From contig NZ_JACJQO010000005.1 of assembly GCF_014696715.1 (NCBI RefSeq), positions 124,001-188,000 of the forward strand: a DNA stretch of 64,000 nucleotides, read 5' to 3'. Of the stretch, positions 43,679-51,732 are shown one piece after another. A program made the position numbers and the translations under genes. The DNA is from Pseudanabaena sp. FACHB-2040 (GTDB lineage Bacteria; Cyanobacteriota; Cyanobacteriia; Phormidesmidales; Phormidesmidaceae). The stretch's first letter is position 1; every line of letters begins with the position of its first letter. Below the pieces are notes generated by a model. It had not been told where the DNA came from and made no database searches. It was given only the letters and a program-made list of their open reading frames with translations.

Positions 43679-44608
43679 TTACTGCTGGACTGCTGCGGGT
43701 TTGGCGGTTGTAACAGAGCGTCGAAATGCTTTAGGTGTCGTTCCTGTAGACTGGCGAAACCATTTACCTAAATGACTGTGACTGCTAAATCCACACAATA
43801 AAGCAATCTCCATCACAGGCAAATTTGTGGTCTTAAGCAGCTGCTTTGCTCGCTCTACTCGCTGTTGAAGGACATACTGATAGGGCGATATTCCCATTGA
43901 TTGCTTAAAGAGGCGGCTGAAATGGAACTGGCTGAGGCCCAGTAGTTTAGCGAGGTCAGAAAGCTGAATATCACTGGCTAAACAATCATGAATGTAATCA
44001 GTAACGTGAAGCAGTTGGTGACTACTCAAGCCTCCCTGCTGGCAAGCAATACACGACTGCCCAGAAGAATAATTTCTGAGCAGATGGACGATCAACAAAT
44101 TAGTCAACGATTCAACATAGAGCTTGCCTGCTGATCCACCGTTGCGCAGCTCCTTCAAAAGCATCATGCCAATTTGTTCAATTTCTGAGTGTCTCGATTG
44201 AAATTCAGGTATCAGCTCTATAGTGTTAGAGCCCTTGCCATTCTCCTGCTGAGCAATTTGATTTAAAAATTCAGAGTCGATCAGAATCTGCAAATATTGG
44301 TCATCTTGAACCCATCGGCTCAGCAAAAGTGACCCGGCAGGAGCAATGGATAGATCACCTTTAGTAAAGAGACTGGTGTGGTTGCGATCGCCCATCTTTT
44401 GAAACAAGCGAGAGGGACGCTGATTGAGCGATAGGCAAAGCAAGTGCTTATTTTCATTGTGATAGATTTCCTCGCTCGGGGGCTGGTGAAACTCCTCGAC
44501 CAAGATGTTTTCCCAGCCATAAGATTGACTAGAAATAATTGGAGGTTGAAGCCCACTGCTGAGCAATTGAACGGTTTCTGCTGAAGGCTGAGCGGTTGAC
44601 GGCATCAA
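43679..44608 (-). CDS. AraC/XylS family transcriptional regulator
   Basis: The 309-residue protein has an N-terminal cupin-like sensing region and a C-terminal double helix-turn-helix (about 205-300): I-Q-L-S-D-L-A-K-L-L-G-L-S-Q-F-H-F-S-R-L-F-K-Q then P-V-M-E-I-A-L-L-C-G-F-S-S-H-S-H-L-G-K-W-F-R-Q with G-T-T-P-K-A-F-R, the classic AraC signature. It is divergent from a MATE efflux gene 165 bases away, so the pump is its most likely target. An inducer is not predictable. Confidence 0.92.
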   Translation of the reverse strand: MMPSTAQPSAETVQLLSSGLQPPIISSQSYGWENILVEEFHQPPSEEIYHNENKHLLCLSLNQRPSRLFQKMGDRNHTSLFTKGDLSIAPAGSLLLSRWVQDDQYLQILIDSEFLNQIAQQENGKGSNTIELIPEFQSRHSEIEQIGMMLLKELRNGGSAGKLYVESLTNLLIVHLLRNYSSGQSCIACQQGGLSSHQLLHVTDYIHDCLASDIQLSDLAKLLGLSQFHFSRLFKQSMGISPYQYVLQQRVERAKQLLKTTNLPVMEIALLCGFSSHSHLGKWFRQSTGTTPKAFRRSVTTAKPAAVQQ

Positions 44609-44773: not shown

Positions 44774-46144
44774 ATGGTTATTCAAGCAGATGTTCAGCCC
44801 AGCATTAGGGTAGAAACTAGAGCTTTTCTAAGGCTGTCTATCCCACTTGCCAGTGCCCAGGTTGCCCAGGCTGCTGTTGGCTTTGTCGATACGATTATGA
44901 TGGGGCATTTGGGCACAGAAAGCTTGGCGGCAGGCGGGCTCGCTTCAACGACCTTTCAGCTTTTGTTGAATGTAGCCAGCGGCTTTGTGATGGCCGTAAG
45001 TCCACTGGTAGCTGAGGCATATGGAGCAGGTCGAAAGGGGCAAGTCGAGCAAATCGCCCGTCAGGGGCTTTGGCTGTCGCTGCTTCTTAGCCTTCCCCTT
45101 ATGATTGGGTTGGCGCATCTAGAGCCAGCTTTGGTGAGGCTCGGACAGCCAGCACCAATTGCCACGCTGGCGGCTCCGTATTTTGAGTTCATTCTGTGGG
45201 GGATCTTTCCGGCGTTGGGCTTTGCCATGTTGAGGGGGTATGCCTCGGCCCTCTCTCAAGCTCAGATCGTGACAGCAGTTGTCATGATTGGAACGCTACT
45301 CAATATTGCCGGAAATTATGTTTTAGGGTTCGGCAAGTTTGGCTTTCCGCGCATGGGGCTAGCAGGGCTGGGGCTAGCTAGCGGGCTTAGCTTCTGGCTA
45401 ATGTTTCTCATTTTCCTCGTTTACTGCCTCAAGCATCCGCAGCTGAAGGAATATCGGTTCCTGCAGGATCTAAAGCAGTTCAACTTCAAAATTCTTCGGC
45501 GGTTGGGGGCTATTGGGGTTGCGATCGCAGTCACCATCGCCCTGGAATATGGTCTGTTTGCCGTTGTTACATTCCTGATGGGCATTTTGGGAACCGAGAT
45601 ACTAGCAGCCCATCAAACGGTTTATCAGACCATGTACATCATTTTCATGGTGCCGCTAGGGATGTCCTACGCCGTTACCGCCCGTGTGGGCCAATGGTAT
45701 GGGCAGGAAGATCTCAGAGGAGCACGACGAGCCGGATATGTGGGCATAGCTCTTGCAGGCAGCTTTATGCTCGTAACGGCACTTGTGTTGGTGGTCTGCC
45801 GTCAGCAGGTTATTGGGATTTATATCGATATTGAGAATCCTCAAAATGCCAGGGTACTGGCTCTGGCGCTGCCCATGCTGTTTGTCTCAGCGCTAGCGCA
45901 GCTTCTAGATGGGGTACAGCGGGTGGCGATGGGTGCGCTGTATGGCCTTCAAGATACGCGGGTGCCCATGCTCCTGAGCGGCGCTGCATTTTGGGGGGTG
46001 GGTCTCACAACAGGGTATCTACTGGGGTTTTCGTTAGGGCTAGAAGGGGTTGGGTTGTGGATAGGGCAGTCGATAGGAGTGGCGGTTGCCGGATTGATCT
46101 TCGTCTGGAGGTTTCATCGGCTAACTGCTGCAAAGCATATTTAG
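44774..46144 (+). CDS. MATE family multidrug efflux transporter
   Basis: The 456-residue protein has about 12 transmembrane helices in two similar halves. The first helix region reads L-A-S-A-Q-V-A-Q-A-A-V-G-F-V-D-T-I-M-M-G-H-L-G (about 26-48), typical of NorM-type MATE pumps, and the second half begins with I-L-A-A-H-Q-T-V-Y-Q-T-M-Y. It exports cationic drugs, metabolites or toxins in exchange for Na+ or H+. It is transcribed away from the AraC regulator. A hairpin lies about 80 bases past its stop. Confidence 0.94.
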   Translation: MVIQADVQPSIRVETRAFLRLSIPLASAQVAQAAVGFVDTIMMGHLGTESLAAGGLASTTFQLLLNVASGFVMAVSPLVAEAYGAGRKGQVEQIARQGLWLSLLLSLPLMIGLAHLEPALVRLGQPAPIATLAAPYFEFILWGIFPALGFAMLRGYASALSQAQIVTAVVMIGTLLNIAGNYVLGFGKFGFPRMGLAGLGLASGLSFWLMFLIFLVYCLKHPQLKEYRFLQDLKQFNFKILRRLGAIGVAIAVTIALEYGLFAVVTFLMGILGTEILAAHQTVYQTMYIIFMVPLGMSYAVTARVGQWYGQEDLRGARRAGYVGIALAGSFMLVTALVLVVCRQQVIGIYIDIENPQNARVLALALPMLFVSALAQLLDGVQRVAMGALYGLQDTRVPMLLSGAAFWGVGLTTGYLLGFSLGLEGVGLWIGQSIGVAVAGLIFVWRFHRLTAAKHI

Positions 46145-46221
46145 GTTATTCGTAATTAGATCAGTTCGCAGGTAGATATACCTTATCAATAGCCTCTGCT
46201 AGCCTTCATCAACCTACTCAA

Positions 46222-46250
46222 TGCCCACCAATTCCTTAGACTGGTGGGCA
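46222..46250 (+). terminator. Hairpin downstream of the MATE gene
   Basis: TGCCCACCA pairs with TGGTGGGCA around an 11-base loop. There is no T tract, so it may be a weak terminator or 3'-end stabiliser; the adjacent gene is convergent. Confidence 0.45.
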
Positions 46251-46320
46251 AACTAAAGTCTCTATCCCTAGTAGAAGAGAGTGCGTCTCACAGTCGGACC
46301 CTTTGACCCCACCTTAATGC

Positions 46321-47367
46321 TTAAAACTTACGTCTTCGGGTTAGTGCTGTGCCAAGCAATCCAGCCAGCATCACGACCACGCCGACAGAAGGCTCAGGCA
46401 CAGAGACAGGGGCAGCTGTCACTTTTACATTACCATCTGCTTCATCACCAAGAGAAGTATAGACATAATTCCAGGCACCGATATCGTTTAGCAGATGGGC
46501 ACGAAGAAATGCTCCGCTCCAGCGTCCGATGGTTTCGGTTGTGACCGCTTGCTCAAGGGTAGGTCTAACAGGATCACGGAAGGAATCTTCGTTAGTGATG
46601 CCGTAGTGGTTTGCACCCTCTAGTTCAATCAAAACCTTCGGTGGGTTGAGAAGCTGCTCAAAAGTTTCGACGGTCTCTGCTGGAGGAGCGACACCGTCTA
46701 GGGTTCCGAAGATAAGTCCAGTGGGCACCTCATTACTAATAGGTGGAATGATTCCCGTATTAGCTGCATCAAAGTTAGTGCCATAGAAAATAGCTGCTTT
46801 TAGTTCTTCAGGCAGGCGATAACTTTCAGTGCAGAGAATAAAGAAGCAATTGTCTTGAGTGGAGGCAATGCCTACAGCACCTCCAAAAGAATGTCCTAGT
46901 AACCCTAGCAAATCTGTATTGAGCAACCCAGAGACTGGAGAATCACTATTAGCATTTTCTAGCGACATGAACTCCAATACCTCCTTTACCTGGTCTTGCT
47001 CAGGAAATAATCCCGAGAATGGAGGAACACCTGGTGCAGACAGCGTTCGCTCATTGTTGGGAACGACAACCGTAAATCCATAGCTGGAAACAATCTCAGC
47101 ATAGTTACGGTAGTCCGCCTTATCGACGAGTGCCCCTTGAAACAGTAGGACAATCGAAGTTGATTCATCTGAGCTGGATACAACTGGATAGTAAATGTCT
47201 ACTGGGTCGTCATCGATAAACGTTGAATACTGGTTAACCTCTGTAAAGATAGGGGCTCCTGCAAAAGAAGTCGCTATTGCAGGACTTGCCATTGAGGTTA
47301 GGAGCAGTAAGGTACCTGTGAGGGACTTAGCCGATAAAGAGCGGCTAGTAATGATTGCTTTTTGCAT
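46321..47367 (-). CDS. Secreted alpha/beta hydrolase with PEP-CTERM sorting signal
   Basis: The start is ATG 47367 (348 residues), where a signal peptide begins (M-Q-K-A-I-I-T-S-R-S then a hydrophobic stretch ending near S-P-A-I-A). The body is dienelactone-hydrolase/chlorophyllase-like: I-V-L-L-F-Q-G-A-L, V-V-V-P-N-N-E-R, and the nucleophile elbow G-H-S-F-G-G-A. The C terminus is a PEP-CTERM tail (V-P-E-P-S, hydrophobic helix, R-R-R-K-F), processed by exosortase for surface display. The ester substrate is unknown. Confidence 0.86.
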   Translation of the reverse strand: MQKAIITSRSLSAKSLTGTLLLLTSMASPAIATSFAGAPIFTEVNQYSTFIDDDPVDIYYPVVSSSDESTSIVLLFQGALVDKADYRNYAEIVSSYGFTVVVPNNERTLSAPGVPPFSGLFPEQDQVKEVLEFMSLENANSDSPVSGLLNTDLLGLLGHSFGGAVGIASTQDNCFFILCTESYRLPEELKAAIFYGTNFDAANTGIIPPISNEVPTGLIFGTLDGVAPPAETVETFEQLLNPPKVLIELEGANHYGITNEDSFRDPVRPTLEQAVTTETIGRWSGAFLRAHLLNDIGAWNYVYTSLGDEADGNVKVTAAPVSVPEPSVGVVVMLAGLLGTALTRRRKF

Positions 47368-47409
47368 TGGTAGATGAAAAATCCTGATGAGGAGTTGGTT
47401 TCTCATCAA

Positions 47410-47847
47410 AATATCTCAGATGTTAGATGCTGTTATTTAAGACTTGGTGAAGTTCTTGAAGAAACCGATGGAATTCTGAGTTTTTGGAGAGTTTACAACC
47501 TGTTAGAAATCAAGGAGCGCTCGTGCGCTTAGCCGCTTCGTGAAAAGGAGTACAGCCAATCGGAACTTGCTCTCTAACTCCTTAAATCTTCTGTATCGAT
47601 GCTTAGAGATGACAAATATATAAAGAAATTATTAAATTCAGAGTACTGAAAGTGTAAGAGATACGAACGATCCAACTAAGAATGGAAGGATAAGGTTGCT
47701 GCCCAGCATTGTTGAAAGTGCTCTGTGCTGCAATGTCGCCCCTCAATTCCGCAGAAGGCTTTTCCTTTGAGGGAGCGGTGCGTTGCCGCTTTAATGCAAC
47801 GCACCCTCCGATTAGCGTCTCGTTTAAGTTTTGTCAGCTCCTTAGGT
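47410..47847. other. Intergenic region with hairpin downstream of psbA
   Basis: About 440 bases without a gene. At 47777-47805, GGTGCGTTGC pairs perfectly with GCAACGCACC, extended by GGAG/CTCC after a bulge. It lies about 40 bases past the psbA stop and probably forms its 3' end, although no T run follows. Confidence 0.6.
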
Positions 47848-48942
47848 TTAGCTCAGCAGAGTTGGTGCCGTCATTGCTACTGGCTCCGCTGCACCTGCTG
47901 CTAGATCTAGGGGGAAGTTGTGGGCATTGCGCTCGTGCATCACCTCCATGCCCAGGTTGGCGCGATTGATGATGTCGGCCCAGGTGCCGATCACCCGGCC
48001 TTGGGCGTCGAGCACTGATTGGTTGAAGTTAAACCCGTTTAGGTTAAAGGCCATCGTGCTGATACCCAGGGAGGTGAACCAGATGCCAAAGACGGGCAGG
48101 GCCGCAAAGATAAAGTGGTTGGTGCGACTGTTGGCTTTGGCCCCAATGATTTCATTAGTTCTTCCCAGCAGGCGGCTCAGGAAACCGTGGGCAGCCAGCA
48201 CGTTGTAGGTTTCCTCCTCCTGACCGAACTTGTAGCCGTAGTTTTGAGATTCGATTTCAGTTGTCTCGCGCACCAGGCTGGAAGTGACTAGCGAGCCATG
48301 CAGCACACTGAGGAGCGAGCCGCCGAAAACGCCAATCACACCTAGCTGGTGAAAGGGGTGCATGAGAATATTGTGCTCTGCCTGAAACACCAGCATGAAA
48401 TTGAAGGTGCCGGAGATCCCGAGGGGCATGCCATCAGAAAAAGAGCCTTGGCCGAGGGGGTAGATCAGGAACACGGCAGTCGCCGCAGCAACAGGAGCTG
48501 AGTAGGCGACACAGATCCAGGGCCGCATCCCTAGTCGGTAGGACAGTTCCCATTCCCGCCCCATGTAGCAGAAAACGCCAATCAAAAAGTGGAAGATCAC
48601 GAGCTGGTAAGGGCCGCCGTTATACAGCCACTCGTCGAGAGAGGCAGCTTCCCAGATGGGATAGAAGTGCAGGCCAATCGCATTGGAAGAGGGCACTACT
48701 GCGCCAGAAATAATGTTGTTGCCATACATCAGTGAACCAGCGACCGGCTCTCGAATGCCGTCGATATCGACGGGAGGTTCAGCCACAAAAGCAATCACAA
48801 AACAGGTGGTTGCAGCTAGCAGAGTGGGAATCATCAGCACACCAAACCAGCCGACATAAAGCCGGTTCTCGGTGCTGACAACCCAGTTGCAAAACCGCTC
48901 CCACAGCCCGACGGTTCCCCGTCTCTGTAGGGTAGTTGTCAT
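47848..48942 (-). CDS. psbA: Photosystem II D1 protein, atypical QB-site variant
   Basis: This 364-residue D1 is four longer than usual. Donor-side residues are intact: D61, Y161, D170, E189, H190, and (shifted by +4) H336, E337, H341, D346 and A348, matching canonical H332, E333, H337, D342 and A344; P680 ligand H198 and iron ligand H215 are present. E130 is the high-light-type residue. Residues 254-270 read [17 protein letters not shown], replacing the canonical segment with F255 and the Q-Y-A-S264-F-N herbicide/QB motif; H252 and the iron ligand (H276 for H272) remain. Other changes include A55E, M199Q, A203I and M214L. A 16-residue C-terminal extension follows the processing site. It is probably a water-oxidising D1 with altered plastoquinone binding. 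Confidence 0.95.
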
Positions 48943-49030
48943 ATTTCAAATCGAAAAAACTGCATTCAGCCGCTAGCTAGCAGGCGCTCTCCGGTTCCTC
49001 ATGAATACCTGTCGAAACCAAAGCGACGTC

Positions 49031-49059
49031 TTACTAACTAACTTGTTAGTTAATGTAAA
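49031..49059 (-). promoter_or_regulatory. Putative psbA promoter with embedded TetR-type operator 1
   Basis: Minus strand: TTTACA (-35, 49059-49054), 17 bases, TAGTAA (-10, 49036-49031). The spacer contains the perfect palindrome TAACTAAC-TT-GTTAGTTA (49035-49052), so a bound repressor would occlude RNA polymerase. The -10 match is only moderate. Confidence 0.65.
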
Positions 49060-49073
49060 CAGTTCTTTTCGGT

Positions 49074-49102
49074 TTGTCAATAACTAACTAACTTGTTAGT
49101 TA
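49074..49102 (+). promoter_or_regulatory. Putative tetR-gene promoter with embedded operator 2
   Basis: Plus strand: TTGTCA (49074-49079), 17 bases, TAGTTA (49097-49102). The identical 18-bp palindrome sits at 49085-49102, 50 bp centre to centre from operator 1. The layout mirrors the psbA side and suggests autoregulation. Confidence 0.65.
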
Positions 49103-49122
49103 AAAGCCTAGAGACTATAGCC

Positions 49123-49905
49123 ATGAGACTGCCGCGCTTGGTATATCGAAGCAACCGACAAGGACAGCTTAAAGTTCTTAACCTGAAGCTAAAGACTGTG
49201 GCCGGGCCAGAGCCTGCCGCTGTATCCTGGGTGAGGAGATTGAGTGGAGCGCCTTTGGCTAAGTCGTCGGCAAAATCAGGACGGTCCCCTGCCCGGCAGG
49301 TTCGAGATGCAGAGGCGACTAGGACCGCCATTCTCGATGCTGCAGAGGAAGAGTTTGCCCGCTTTGGCCTAAATGGAGCTAGGACAGAAGCGATCGCAGC
49401 TAAGACCGGCGTCACCAAAGCGATGATCTACTACTACTTCGGCAGTAAAGAAGACCTGTACCAGGAAGTCTTAAAGCGCCCCTTTAGCGACCTATTTAAC
49501 TCAGTAGCTCACCTGTCACTGGATGAGATGACGCCAGAGGCGGCAGTTGTGGCTCTGATTGAAGCAGGAATTTCCTATGAGGCCGCTCACCCCTACCAAC
49601 AGATGATTCTGTTTCAAGAAGCTAGCCAGAATGAGGGTAAGTTTCTCAAAGAGGCGGGGCTGCAGCCAGTCTATACCAAAATTATCGAAATTCTAGAGCG
49701 GGGCATGGCAGACGGCAGTTTCCGCCCGCTTGACCCCTGGTTTACGGCGATTCAAATTGGCGGTGTTGTCAGCTTCTACTTCACCACCTACGAGAACATG
49801 AAGCACATCGCCCCCGACTGGTGGGACTTCCGCAACCCAGAAATGATTGCGCGCCACAAGCGAGAAGCGATTGAGTTTGTGCTGCGGGGCCTTCGGGCTG
49901 ACTGA
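49123..49905 (+). CDS. TetR/AcrR family transcriptional regulator, likely controls the variant psbA
   Basis: ATG 49123 is chosen (260 residues); a TTG at 49093 in the same frame lies inside operator 2. After an unusual basic extension of about 60 residues, the TetR DNA-binding domain spans about 66-112: R-T-A-I-L-D-A-A-E-E-E-F-A-R-F-G then T-E-A-I-A-A-K-T-G-V-T-K-A-M-I-Y-Y-Y-F-G-S-K-E. The C-terminal ligand-binding half is helical with a TetR_C-like segment (Y-F-T-T-Y-E-N-M). It is divergent from psbA with paired operators between, the standard arrangement for a repressor of its neighbour. Ligand is unknown. Confidence 0.9.
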   Translation: MRLPRLVYRSNRQGQLKVLNLKLKTVAGPEPAAVSWVRRLSGAPLAKSSAKSGRSPARQVRDAEATRTAILDAAEEEFARFGLNGARTEAIAAKTGVTKAMIYYYFGSKEDLYQEVLKRPFSDLFNSVAHLSLDEMTPEAAVVALIEAGISYEAAHPYQQMILFQEASQNEGKFLKEAGLQPVYTKIIEILERGMADGSFRPLDPWFTAIQIGGVVSFYFTTYENMKHIAPDWWDFRNPEMIARHKREAIEFVLRGLRAD

Positions 49906-50425
49906 TAGGGGTTAACTCTTCATTTGCCGCTAACTGTTGCTTCAGCAAGTTCAAGAAAGCGTAGATTGCGGGACCGTGCAACCCCTCGGCTGTGACCGCG
50001 ACGCCAATCGTTCGAGCTAAAGGCACTGGCAGACTATACACCTGCACCCCGGTCGGAATGGGTTGGGCCGCCAGGTTCGGCAGGATAGAGGCCCCTAACC
50101 CCTGTGCCACTAGCGCGACAATTGTGCCATCGGTTTCAACTTCGTAGGCCACTTTGAGCAAGTAGCCAAAGCTTTGAGTGTGGGCATAGACCTGCTCCAT
50201 CATGATGTAGTCTGCGGGGGGCATGACTAGGGGCTGGACGGCGATATCTTTCCAGGTGAGCTGATCGCCTTTGGCTGCAGGAAAGTAACACTACGTCTAG
50301 GTGTTGCTCTAGAGCTGCGATCGCATGACTCCTGCCGACTGCGATATCTCCAAAGACAGAGCCGCCTCGCTAAAACTGCCCTGCTCTGCCACCGCCACCA
50401 AAATCTTGAGTTGAGACAACTTCAT
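49781..50425 (-). pseudogene. LysR-family regulator pseudogene (frameshift and internal deletion)
   Basis: From ATG 50425 the minus strand encodes a LysR helix-turn-helix start: M-K-L-S-Q-L-K-I-L-V-A-V-A-E-Q-G-S-F-S-E-A-A-L. After I-S-Q-S-A-G a one-base shift (about 50336) is needed to continue S-H-A-I-A-A-L-E-Q-H-L-D-V-V-L. The sequence then jumps to P-A-A-K-G-D-Q-L-T-W-K-D-I-A-V-Q-P-L and the co-inducer domain tail (V-E-T-D-G-T-I-V-A-L-V-A-Q-G-L-G-A-S-I-L-P), so about 100 or more central residues are missing. The last part of the open frame overlaps the 3' end of the TetR gene and is likely run-on. Confidence 0.8.
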
Positions 50426-50874
50426 CTGGTTTTGGTGATTTGTCTTCATGCTAAGCGACCCCCAAAATTTTCAGAGCCAGCCAGCGTTAACGGCTGCTTC
50501 TGCACCATCAAATTTACTCGCGCAAAAGACAAGAGCCAATGCCTTCATTTCCTGCTGCAGACTACGGGTGAGGCGGGTTGTCATCACGGATTTAATGGAA
50601 AATATGCATTTAGCTAGAGATGCAGTCTAATCTTCAGCATGAGGCAAGCACAAGAAGTCCATGCTTAGCTGGTATAAGCAGGTCGGAGCAGCTACTTGAA
50701 TGACTCAATCTCATCCAAAGAGTCTGCAAAAAACCTGATCGATCCGGTCAATGCTTCCCATGTTAGAGAAGTGCTGCTATGCACTTTAACTGCTACACAG
50801 ACTGCAATTATCAGGGGGAGTGTCACAAGACTGCCGGATAGGGAAACCGTTGAATTGAATGAGAGGATACCCCT
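50426..50874. other. Intergenic region without recognisable gene
   Basis: About 450 bases between the LysR pseudogene start and a lipoprotein gene. Short frames here have no protein-like character. A former LysR target may have been lost. The lipoprotein promoter must lie in the right part. Confidence 0.45.
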
Positions 50875-51732
50875 GTGACTACACTACATAAGCGCCGTTT
50901 TGGTGCAGGATTTAGAGGAGGAGCTTTTGCCCTAGCACTGGCTGCATTTGCACTGACTGCTTGCGAAGTTCCGGGCGGTACAACAGGGCAAGACCAGGCT
51001 ACCCCAGGCCCAGCTGCAACCCAGACAGACCCGGGAGAGCCCGAAGATTTTGATATTCAAGTGGGTGATCTAACTGGCAACCTAGAAGATTACGTGGGTC
51101 AGGAAGTCTCTGTTCGCGGTGAGGCCGTAGAAAGTATCGGCGAGAACGCTTTTTTGGTTCGCGATGACCAACTTTTTGGTGGACAAGAGGTTGTTGTCTT
51201 TAACGCCACCGGCGCTCCTCTAATCTTGCCTAGAGGTGGAGCTACCGAACGACTTCAGGTAACAGGCCAGGTGCGAGAAGTTGTTATTGAAGACTTGGCC
51301 CAGGAGTACGGTCTAACCTTAGATGAGGAGACCTACGGCAACTACGAAAACAGCCCTGCCATTATTGCTGAATCGGTTGCTTTGGCCCCTGAACCGGGCG
51401 AGATTAGCGATAACCCAGAGGCTTTTTACGACCAGCCTATTGCCGTTGAAGGTGCAGTAGGCGAACAGTACGAGCAAGGTACCTTTACCATTACCCAAGA
51501 CCAGTTGTTTGGTGGCGCTGATGTGCTAGTTGTTGGCGCTACGCCCGGCACTGGTGATCTTCGAGGCGCTGAGGAAGTTGTCATTACTGGGGTGCTACGC
51601 CCTTATGTTGCCGCTGATTTTGAGCGCGACTACAACCTAACTTGGGATGAGGGTTTACAGCAAACCATCGAAGCGGAATATAGCGAGAAACCTGTCTTGG
51701 TTGCTGAGCAAATTTATCCTCTGGTGCGCTAG
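50875..51732 (+). CDS. Lipoprotein with duplicated OB-like domain
   Basis: The 285-residue protein starts at GTG 50875 (GAGAGG about 10 bases upstream). A lipoprotein signal peptide ends in A-L-T-A-C with C30, followed by a Pro/Gly/Thr/Gln linker. Two similar beta-rich units follow (about 62-170 and 175-285), both with x-x-Y-x-x-Q-x-(V/I)-x-V-x-G or E-G, then R/T-x-D-Q-L-F-G-G-x-x-V-(V/L)-V-(F/V), and a later Y-x-L-T-x-(D/W)-E. This looks like an internal duplication of an OB-type fold. It is probably anchored in the outer or plasma membrane. Function is unknown. Confidence 0.8.
   Translation: MTTLHKRRFGAGFRGGAFALALAAFALTACEVPGGTTGQDQATPGPAATQTDPGEPEDFDIQVGDLTGNLEDYVGQEVSVRGEAVESIGENAFLVRDDQLFGGQEVVVFNATGAPLILPRGGATERLQVTGQVREVVIEDLAQEYGLTLDEETYGNYENSPAIIAESVALAPEPGEISDNPEAFYDQPIAVEGAVGEQYEQGTFTITQDQLFGGADVLVVGATPGTGDLRGAEEVVITGVLRPYVAADFERDYNLTWDEGLQQTIEAEYSEKPVLVAEQIYPLVR

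Follow-up and report, generated by a model that had tools for sequence, protein, structure and literature searches.

Introduction

Among the forms of D1, a core subunit of photosystem II (PSII), Kim et al. (2025, PMC12096807) distinguish groups G0 to G4, a far-red form and an INT form, and they state that the structure of two regions, T248-L258 and S264/F265, is well preserved from group to group. Both D1-INT and far-red D1 are specialised forms that lie near or in G4 (PMC12096807 and PMC9740203), and Trp126 and Trp260 are given as the marks of D1-INT (PMC9740203). According to two further sources, His215, Ser264 and the backbone of Phe265 bind QB, its first protonation is thought to run via Ser264/His252, and the Ser264 contact is lost in the Ser264-type herbicide-resistant D1 proteins of weeds and algal mutants (PMC4030317, PMC6170454). 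The S264K change is triazine-resistant but slow, with a delayed reduction of the plastoquinone (PQ) pool in Chlamydomonas (PMC6170454). Cyanobacterial inhibitors of PSII include cyanobacterin, the fischerellins and the hapalindoles (PMC2525484).

The locus described here lies in a 64,000-nucleotide stretch of the genome of Pseudanabaena sp. FACHB-2040 (contig NZ_JACJQO010000005.1, positions 124,001 to 188,000), referred to below as the window, and carries a psbA variant that belongs to a class of D1 proteins with a rewritten QB loop. The class resembles standard G4 D1 (PsbA) in overall sequence (about 81-88% identity to the best loci kept) and shares with it the ligands of Mn, TyrZ, chlorophyll and iron. 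Its residues 259-266, however, are replaced, it is 4-5 residues longer, and it comes with its own TetR regulator and operators. Whereas herbicide-resistant D1 proteins are point mutants of normal D1, the class shows replacement of a whole segment in a separate, locally regulated copy. The layout also resembles that of TetR-controlled resistance units such as the divergent TetR/TetA and the cyanobacterial TetR-Rieske and TetR-FAD monooxygenase units described below. As in such units, there is a divergent TetR, one promoter, palindromic operators and one output gene; their output, however, is a pump or a detoxification enzyme, whereas that of the cassette is a PSII core subunit. We found no report of this D1 class or of a TetR-controlled psbA in the literature searched.

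Results

The variant D1 of the window

The features of the locus are collected in Table 1. The window protein scores 725.6 bits against the NCBIfam psbA model, for which the cut-off is 596.05. It keeps H118, Y161, D170, E189, H190, H198, H215 and H252, and also, at an offset of +4, H272, H332, E333, H337, D342 and A344. After H252, the canonical H252-GYFGRL-IFQYASFN-NSR is replaced: Y254/F255/G256 are changed to F/L/S, and they are followed by the rewritten segment listed in Table 1, whose coordinates agree with a DNA pattern match (G000:C5:172149-172174). A first-pass annotation of this DNA had claimed that the Mn-cluster ligands, Tyr161/His190 and the chlorophyll and iron histidines are intact, that the QB/herbicide loop is replaced, and that four added residues shift the C-terminal ligands by +4, all of which is borne out for the window D1 with minor corrections.

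Table 1. Features of the locus in window coordinates, and further loop-variant psbA loci.
Feature	Position	Strand	Basis
psbA variant, D1 of 364 aa, rewritten QB loop	47848..48942	(-)	ORF + NCBIfam psbA
Rewritten QB segment, residues 259-270 of the window protein in place of IFQYASFN at canonical 259-266, net +4 aa	48133..48168	(-)	reading frame
Operator ACTAACNNGTTAGT, 12/12, immediately downstream of the psbA -10 box	49037..49050	(.)	sequence
-10 box TACATT of the psbA promoter, 17 bp spacer	49052..49057	(-)	consensus match, predicted
-35 box TTGACA of the psbA promoter	49075..49080	(-)	consensus match, predicted
Second operator ACTAACNNGTTAGT, 12/12, upstream of the -35 box, 50 bp from the first	49087..49100	(.)	sequence
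TetR-family regulator (PF00440 + TetR_C_29), head-to-head with psbA	49093..49905	(+)	Pfam, relatives
Loop-variant psbA, Halomicronema MAG (L006)			
Loop-variant psbA, Nodosilinea sp. LEGE 07298 (L007)			
Loop-variant psbA, Leptolyngbya sp. FACHB-8 (L008)			
Loop-variant psbA, Leptolyngbyaceae M33_DOE_097 (L009)			

The first-pass annotation had proposed to count the canonical psbA copies of the genome. There is one canonical full-length gene (C7:101296), besides three psbA copies cut at contig ends; the variant is thus an extra copy. An apparent absence of psbD from this genome was rejected, since a contig end adjoins psbC. An Rfam scan of window positions 46000-51000 gave zero matches.

On the far side of the variant psbA, an AraC-family regulator (43679-44608, minus strand) stands divergent to a MATE efflux transporter (44774-46144, plus strand; both by Pfam) that ends 1.7 kb from the psbA stop, and a relative of the AraC gene is also found near the cassette in L189. 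Downstream of psbA, the gene at 46321-47409 (minus strand) has a weak PET-hydrolase-like match (PF12740) and an apparent PEP-CTERM tail, and neighbour clustering revealed no counterpart of it near the other cassettes. Beside the TetR gene, a 147-aa ORF (49781-50224, minus strand) matches only the C-terminal part of the LysR substrate-binding domain (Pfam) and is probably a LysR remnant.

Distribution of the class

A search for the segment in other genomes, as the first-pass annotation had suggested, was carried out with a DNA pattern for RL.GRTNE, which matches 20 genes, all of them D1, in 19 of 388 cyanobacterial genomes; the reversed control pattern matches in 0 of the 388. Two further members, G182 (GRMNE) and G159 (GRTNEA), were found via the operator described below, so that the class comprises 22 genes in 21 of the 388 genomes, spread over four families (f1, f15, f24 and f27). 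The plain loop pattern is present in 12 of the 63 genomes of the window's own family and in 5 of the 36 of a second family, and the loop is found in 4 of the best 80 psbA loci among named genomes. Most genomes examined have several psbA copies, and one (G189) has a cassette on each of two contigs, the two differing in subtype (L204 and L205).

A looser loop pattern matches in 26 of the 388 genomes; it recovers G182 and G159 and misses the window, where Phe255 is Leu. Six further matches of this pattern were not counted. The one in G133 proved on checking not to be a D1, and those in G314, G244, G222, G188 and G235 were judged to be due to chance from the 26 matched bases only. G344, in which the TetR is present and psbA is cut before the loop, is not counted in the class.

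The first-pass annotation had itself raised the possibility that the loop is an assembly error or a feature of many ordinary D1 proteins. Assembly error or chance is rejected by the presence of the loop in 21 genomes, by the control pattern and by the purifying selection described below, and none of the 41 comparison D1 proteins carries the loop. A phage origin was likewise rejected, as the loop pattern occurs in 0 of the best 80 viral loci. In a phage collection, 512 records match a 72-aa query that contains the loop, with identities of 60-80% throughout, and the 5 of 512 rows inspected span 67 codons, which is the canonical length. For plasmids, the best 10 of 18 records have a stretch that is 11-12 bases shorter than the part of the query it matches, as canonical genes do.

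Conserved and replaced residues

The Mn4CaO5 ligands D170, E189, H332, E333, H337, D342 and A344 are kept in 21/21 full-length members, as are Y161/H190, H118, H198, H215 and H272. Across the class, residues 259-266, including Ser264/Phe265, are replaced by a loop with the consensus xGR[T/M]NE...G..A, which adds five residues in 20 of the 21 full-length members and four in the window member. With residues called diagnostic if present in at least 80% of the class and at most 15% elsewhere (41 comparison D1 proteins), all diagnostic residues fall within the loop, namely: G260, R261, N263, E264, and a later G and A (21/21 vs. 0/41), where the assignment of Glu to position 264 depends on the placement of gaps in the alignment. 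Ser264 is found in 0/21 class members vs. 41/41 comparison D1 proteins, and the canonical QB segment with Ser264 and Phe265 is absent from all 21 full-length members. This combination of retained Mn ligands and lost Ser264/Phe265 agrees with the first-pass reading of a putative oxygen-evolving-type D1 with a changed QB/inhibitor site. The class also has Glu130 in 21/21 members, a residue that is typical of high-light D1 forms and that is present in 23 of the 41 other D1 proteins as well.

The most derived member is that of the window, which has further changes at positions 211, 214, 254, 255, 256, 271, 274 and 278, including the pocket changes M214L, F255L, L271N, F274I and W278L. In a search of the PDB, the 53 distinct sequences among the matches listed align over 43-44 residues vs. 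48-49 of the query. Two AlphaFold2 models had mean pLDDT values of 36.4 and 38.2 and were not used.

Phylogeny and selection

In a tree of the aligned D1 sequences, again a step that the first-pass annotation had proposed, the class forms one clade within standard G4 D1 (SH-aLRT 97 by a quick method; loop columns excluded and 12 long-branch rows, divergent or D2, left out). In a tree of all 74 rows with the loop columns removed, the class also lies within G4, split into 17 + 4 rows with weak support. Left out before the 74-row tree were L006-L009 (the same genes as L096, L104, L093 and L094), L091 (truncated), L240 and L252 (runs of N), L241 (truncated frame) and L261 (merged frame). The labels for G1/G2, far-red and other D1 groups were assigned in this analysis, those for G1/G2 from ligand loss.

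Several known D1 forms were considered as identities for the class and rejected. D1-INT is rejected by Tyr126 and Gly260, each in 21/21 members, and the D1-INT-like L238 (W260; IWQYASFNNSR) has no insertion, unlike the class. The presumed far-red proteins L258 and L259 (IFQYASFNNSR) also lack the insertion and are separate from the class in the clade tree, although in the weaker 74-row tree four class members stand next to them with a support of 82. As to a FaRLiP gene cluster, in which a far-red D1 would lie, no photosystem genes were recognised by eye among the neighbours of ten loci. The nine G1/G2 D1 proteins (L244-L251 and L254) have an altered QB segment like the class; unlike it, they have no insertion and have lost C-terminal Mn ligands, whereas in the class, which belongs to G4, no ligand is missing. 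The ChlF and sentinel classes are thus rejected by residues and by the tree, in a comparison whose atypical D1 proteins were those assigned to G1/G2.

The class is under purifying selection. Among 187 pairs of other members, restricted to those with pS > 0.2, the median pS is 0.71, with a pN of 0.069 outside the loop and of 0.082 within it. The 20 pairs that include the window member give a pS of 0.66, a pN of 0.087 and a loop pN of 0.18.

A divergent TetR regulator and its operators

The first-pass annotation missed the TetR regulator and the operators. The longest ORF of the window TetR gene begins inside an operator, and the start was therefore placed at the TTG at 49255, which is the probable start by comparison with relatives. 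The start codons of psbA and TetR are about 150 to 310 bp apart. A divergent TetR accompanies psbA in 19 of the 22 class loci (17 of the first 20, plus L303 and L304), in each case together with promoter operators; two loci are without both, and one is cut by a contig end (G066, whose TetR is not scorable as the contig ends inside psbA). In G159 (L304), the two genes are about 1.35 kb apart and have a 162-aa ORF between them.

The two exceptions, G138 and G207, keep the loop and have neither TetR nor operators at the locus. The loop is thus not strictly tied to the switch, which counts against the explanation that we favour below. The TetR position is taken in G138 and G207 by a large gene of 1244 and 1213 aa, respectively, and G207 has two TetR-family fragments at contig ends elsewhere in its genome. 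The upstream regions of the TetR-less members (L190 and L193) resemble each other, and their large gene appears to encode an NB-ARC/WD-repeat protein.

When 17 of the TetR proteins were compared by tblastn with 80 other psbA loci, there were 0 hits at 1e-3. These loci have flanks of varying length, up to 6 kb, and consist of 75 with the canonical segment, L027 and L033 (neither motif readable), and three that end short of the loop. Among the closest regulators that are curated or have a solved structure are RutR, FadR-type and quorum-type proteins, plus the multidrug regulators MtrR, AcrR and TtgR; all NCBIfam matches of the TetR are far below cut-off.

The class upstream regions share a predicted sigma-70-like promoter, flanked or overlapped by the operators, of the form TTGACA-17/18-(TACATT, TAAATT, TAAGCT and similar), with the palindrome ACTAACNNGTTAGT just past the -10 box and often a second one about 50 bp upstream. 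The best operator matches 11-12 of 12 positions in 19/19 TetR loci, and a second of at least 10/12 is present in 18 of the 19; the best match is 8/12 in the two TetR-less loci and 10/12 among 73 other psbA upstream regions. Two sites of at least 10/12 were found in 0 of 1050 shuffled upstream regions. In the 19 class genomes searched there are 24 exact operators, all of them at the cassette locus, and 14 of the genomes have at least one. Counting against the operator evidence, the reversed operator pattern, used as background control, has 1-3 matches in 11 of the 22 genomes of the same scan. Exact sites occur in 27 further genomes, three of which were shown to hold further cassettes: one region was examined from each of 16 of the 27, and the four with a clearly related TetR are the cassettes of G182, G159 and G344 and a locus in G127. 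Regulator and operators are conserved across the four families.

Relatives of the regulator at detoxification loci

At the G127 locus, a related TetR (42-47% identical) shares the operator of the cassettes and has a Crp-like gene and RND-efflux genes as neighbours. A profile (A1) that includes the G127 TetR, and therefore matches it by construction, was run against 73 genomes, 70 without the class and three class members (G207, G138 and G066), and gave 26 matches in 19 genomes at 1e-15. Besides G127 there are 18 strong loci (L331-L348), and each of the 18 has a divergent neighbour, namely: a Rieske oxygenase (11), an FAD monooxygenase (4), a macrolide-type glycosyltransferase (2) or a DUF3179 protein (1), as identified by Pfam scan in 8 of the 18 and by similarity in the rest. 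They form a cyanobacterial family of units in which a TetR gene stands divergent to a Rieske oxygenase, FAD monooxygenase or glycosyltransferase gene. By eye and with no control, a TTGAC motif with a nearby palindrome is seen in 16 of 17 upstream regions of these relatives, that of L333 being too short. The detoxification locus whose TetR is closest to that of the window (59%) is L331, with the palindrome ACTAACTAACTGTTTAGTTAGT.

In a TetR tree made by a quick method, the psbA-linked and detoxification-linked regulators interleave, with three changes between them. The window TetR groups with the Rieske-linked L331 (SH-aLRT 91), and the G037 TetR with regulators of FAD-monooxygenase and RND genes (96); the G037 and G127 branches were flagged as long.

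Some neighbours are shared as well. The cassette of G148 adjoins a TetR2-Rieske2 unit, the best relatives of which (71% and 79% identity) adjoin TetR-Rieske1 in G142, and in G196 an amidase and another TetR adjoin the cassette, as they do near detoxification units in G142, G084 and G015. Overall, 5 of 22 class loci vs. 2 of 76 other psbA loci share neighbours with detoxification loci, where two of the five rest on one 113-aa match and the control is not matched by taxon; this is suggestive only. Separately, a response regulator fused to a pyridine-nucleotide-disulphide oxidoreductase adjoins the cassette in G325 (L195, 8496-10145), and a counterpart of this fusion (84% identity) is found near a TetR-Rieske unit in G228. 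In our reading, an existing regulatory arrangement has the psbA variant where a detoxification gene would otherwise stand.

Discussion

The class, its ligands, the loop change and the conservation of regulator and operators can be read directly from the sequences compared here. They make it probable, in our judgement, that tetR and the variant psbA form a two-gene cassette for inducible target replacement in PSII. The best clue to function is the TetR with its operators.

We infer the inducer, derepression, assembly into PSII, water oxidation and resistance from these features, as follows. TetR without ligand would repress psbA and itself, and a small PSII inhibitor, probably aromatic or amphiphilic, would bind TetR and so release the promoter; likely candidates would be natural allelochemicals from neighbouring cyanobacteria or algae. 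The variant D1 would then substitute for normal D1 during PSII repair. Since the variant retains the Mn-cluster ligands, the TyrZ/His190 pair and the histidines that bind chlorophyll and iron, the resulting PSII should still oxidise water, and with the Ser264/Phe265 segment gone, urea/triazine-type inhibitors would have lost their site. The GR[T/M]NE segment, with H215 and H252 kept, may hold and protonate plastoquinone differently, so that electron flow would go on in variant PSII while normal PSII is blocked. Because His215 is kept, resistance is expected more to Ser264-type than to phenolic inhibitors. Counting against this scheme, QB might be reduced slowly or not at all with a rewritten DE loop. 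The more specific statement, of an inducible oxygen-evolving PSII in which Gly-Arg-Thr-Asn-Glu replaces Ser264/Phe265 under a xenobiotic-sensing TetR switch, is put forward tentatively, at rather less than even chances.

Of lower probability, though to be taken seriously, is a D1 retuned on the acceptor side for endogenous stress, where TetR would sense an internal metabolite (a fatty acid, quinone, pyrimidine or tetrapyrrole product) and the loop would tune QB potential or exchange and not resistance. The RutR, FadR-type and quorum-type receptors among the closest characterised regulators do have endogenous ligands, alongside the multidrug types, and Glu130 is invariant in the class, though common in other D1 proteins too. 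The nearest TetR relatives, however, face oxygenases, monooxygenases, glycosyltransferases and RND-efflux genes, and the diagnostic change is limited to the Ser264/Phe265 segment.

It is improbable that the loop instead fills the QB pocket and yields a slowed or closed PSII. Such a PSII would be inactive or serve for storage, as has been proposed for sentinel D1, and toxic stress would switch it on. The longer loop with its charged residues and the further pocket changes of the window member fit such a form, as does the slowed PQ-pool reduction of S264K in Chlamydomonas (PMC6170454). Yet 21/21 members retain the seven Mn ligands together with Y161 and H190, under purifying selection, and the divergent D1 proteins assigned to G1/G2 have lost C-terminal ligands, unlike the class. 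Finally, a neutral or decaying spare psbA copy that drifted in its QB loop, for which the patchy occurrence in 21 of 388 genomes, the several psbA copies of most genomes examined and the greater divergence of the window member could be cited, is very hard to credit, contradicted as it is by selection (pN of about 0.07 vs. pS of about 0.71, and 0.08 in the loop) and by synteny, with regulator and operators kept across four families.

The variant is an isoform of D1, and regulation of this type was not found for D1 in the literature searched. If target replacement is the correct explanation, plastoquinone would be reducible without Ser264/Phe265, through a new chemical solution to QB protonation, and these cyanobacteria would possess a natural, regulated, inhibitor-insensitive PSII. 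It would be the first locally regulated, inhibitor-responsive D1 copy within the literature searched, and would link chemical warfare among phototrophs to the switching of D1 isoforms.
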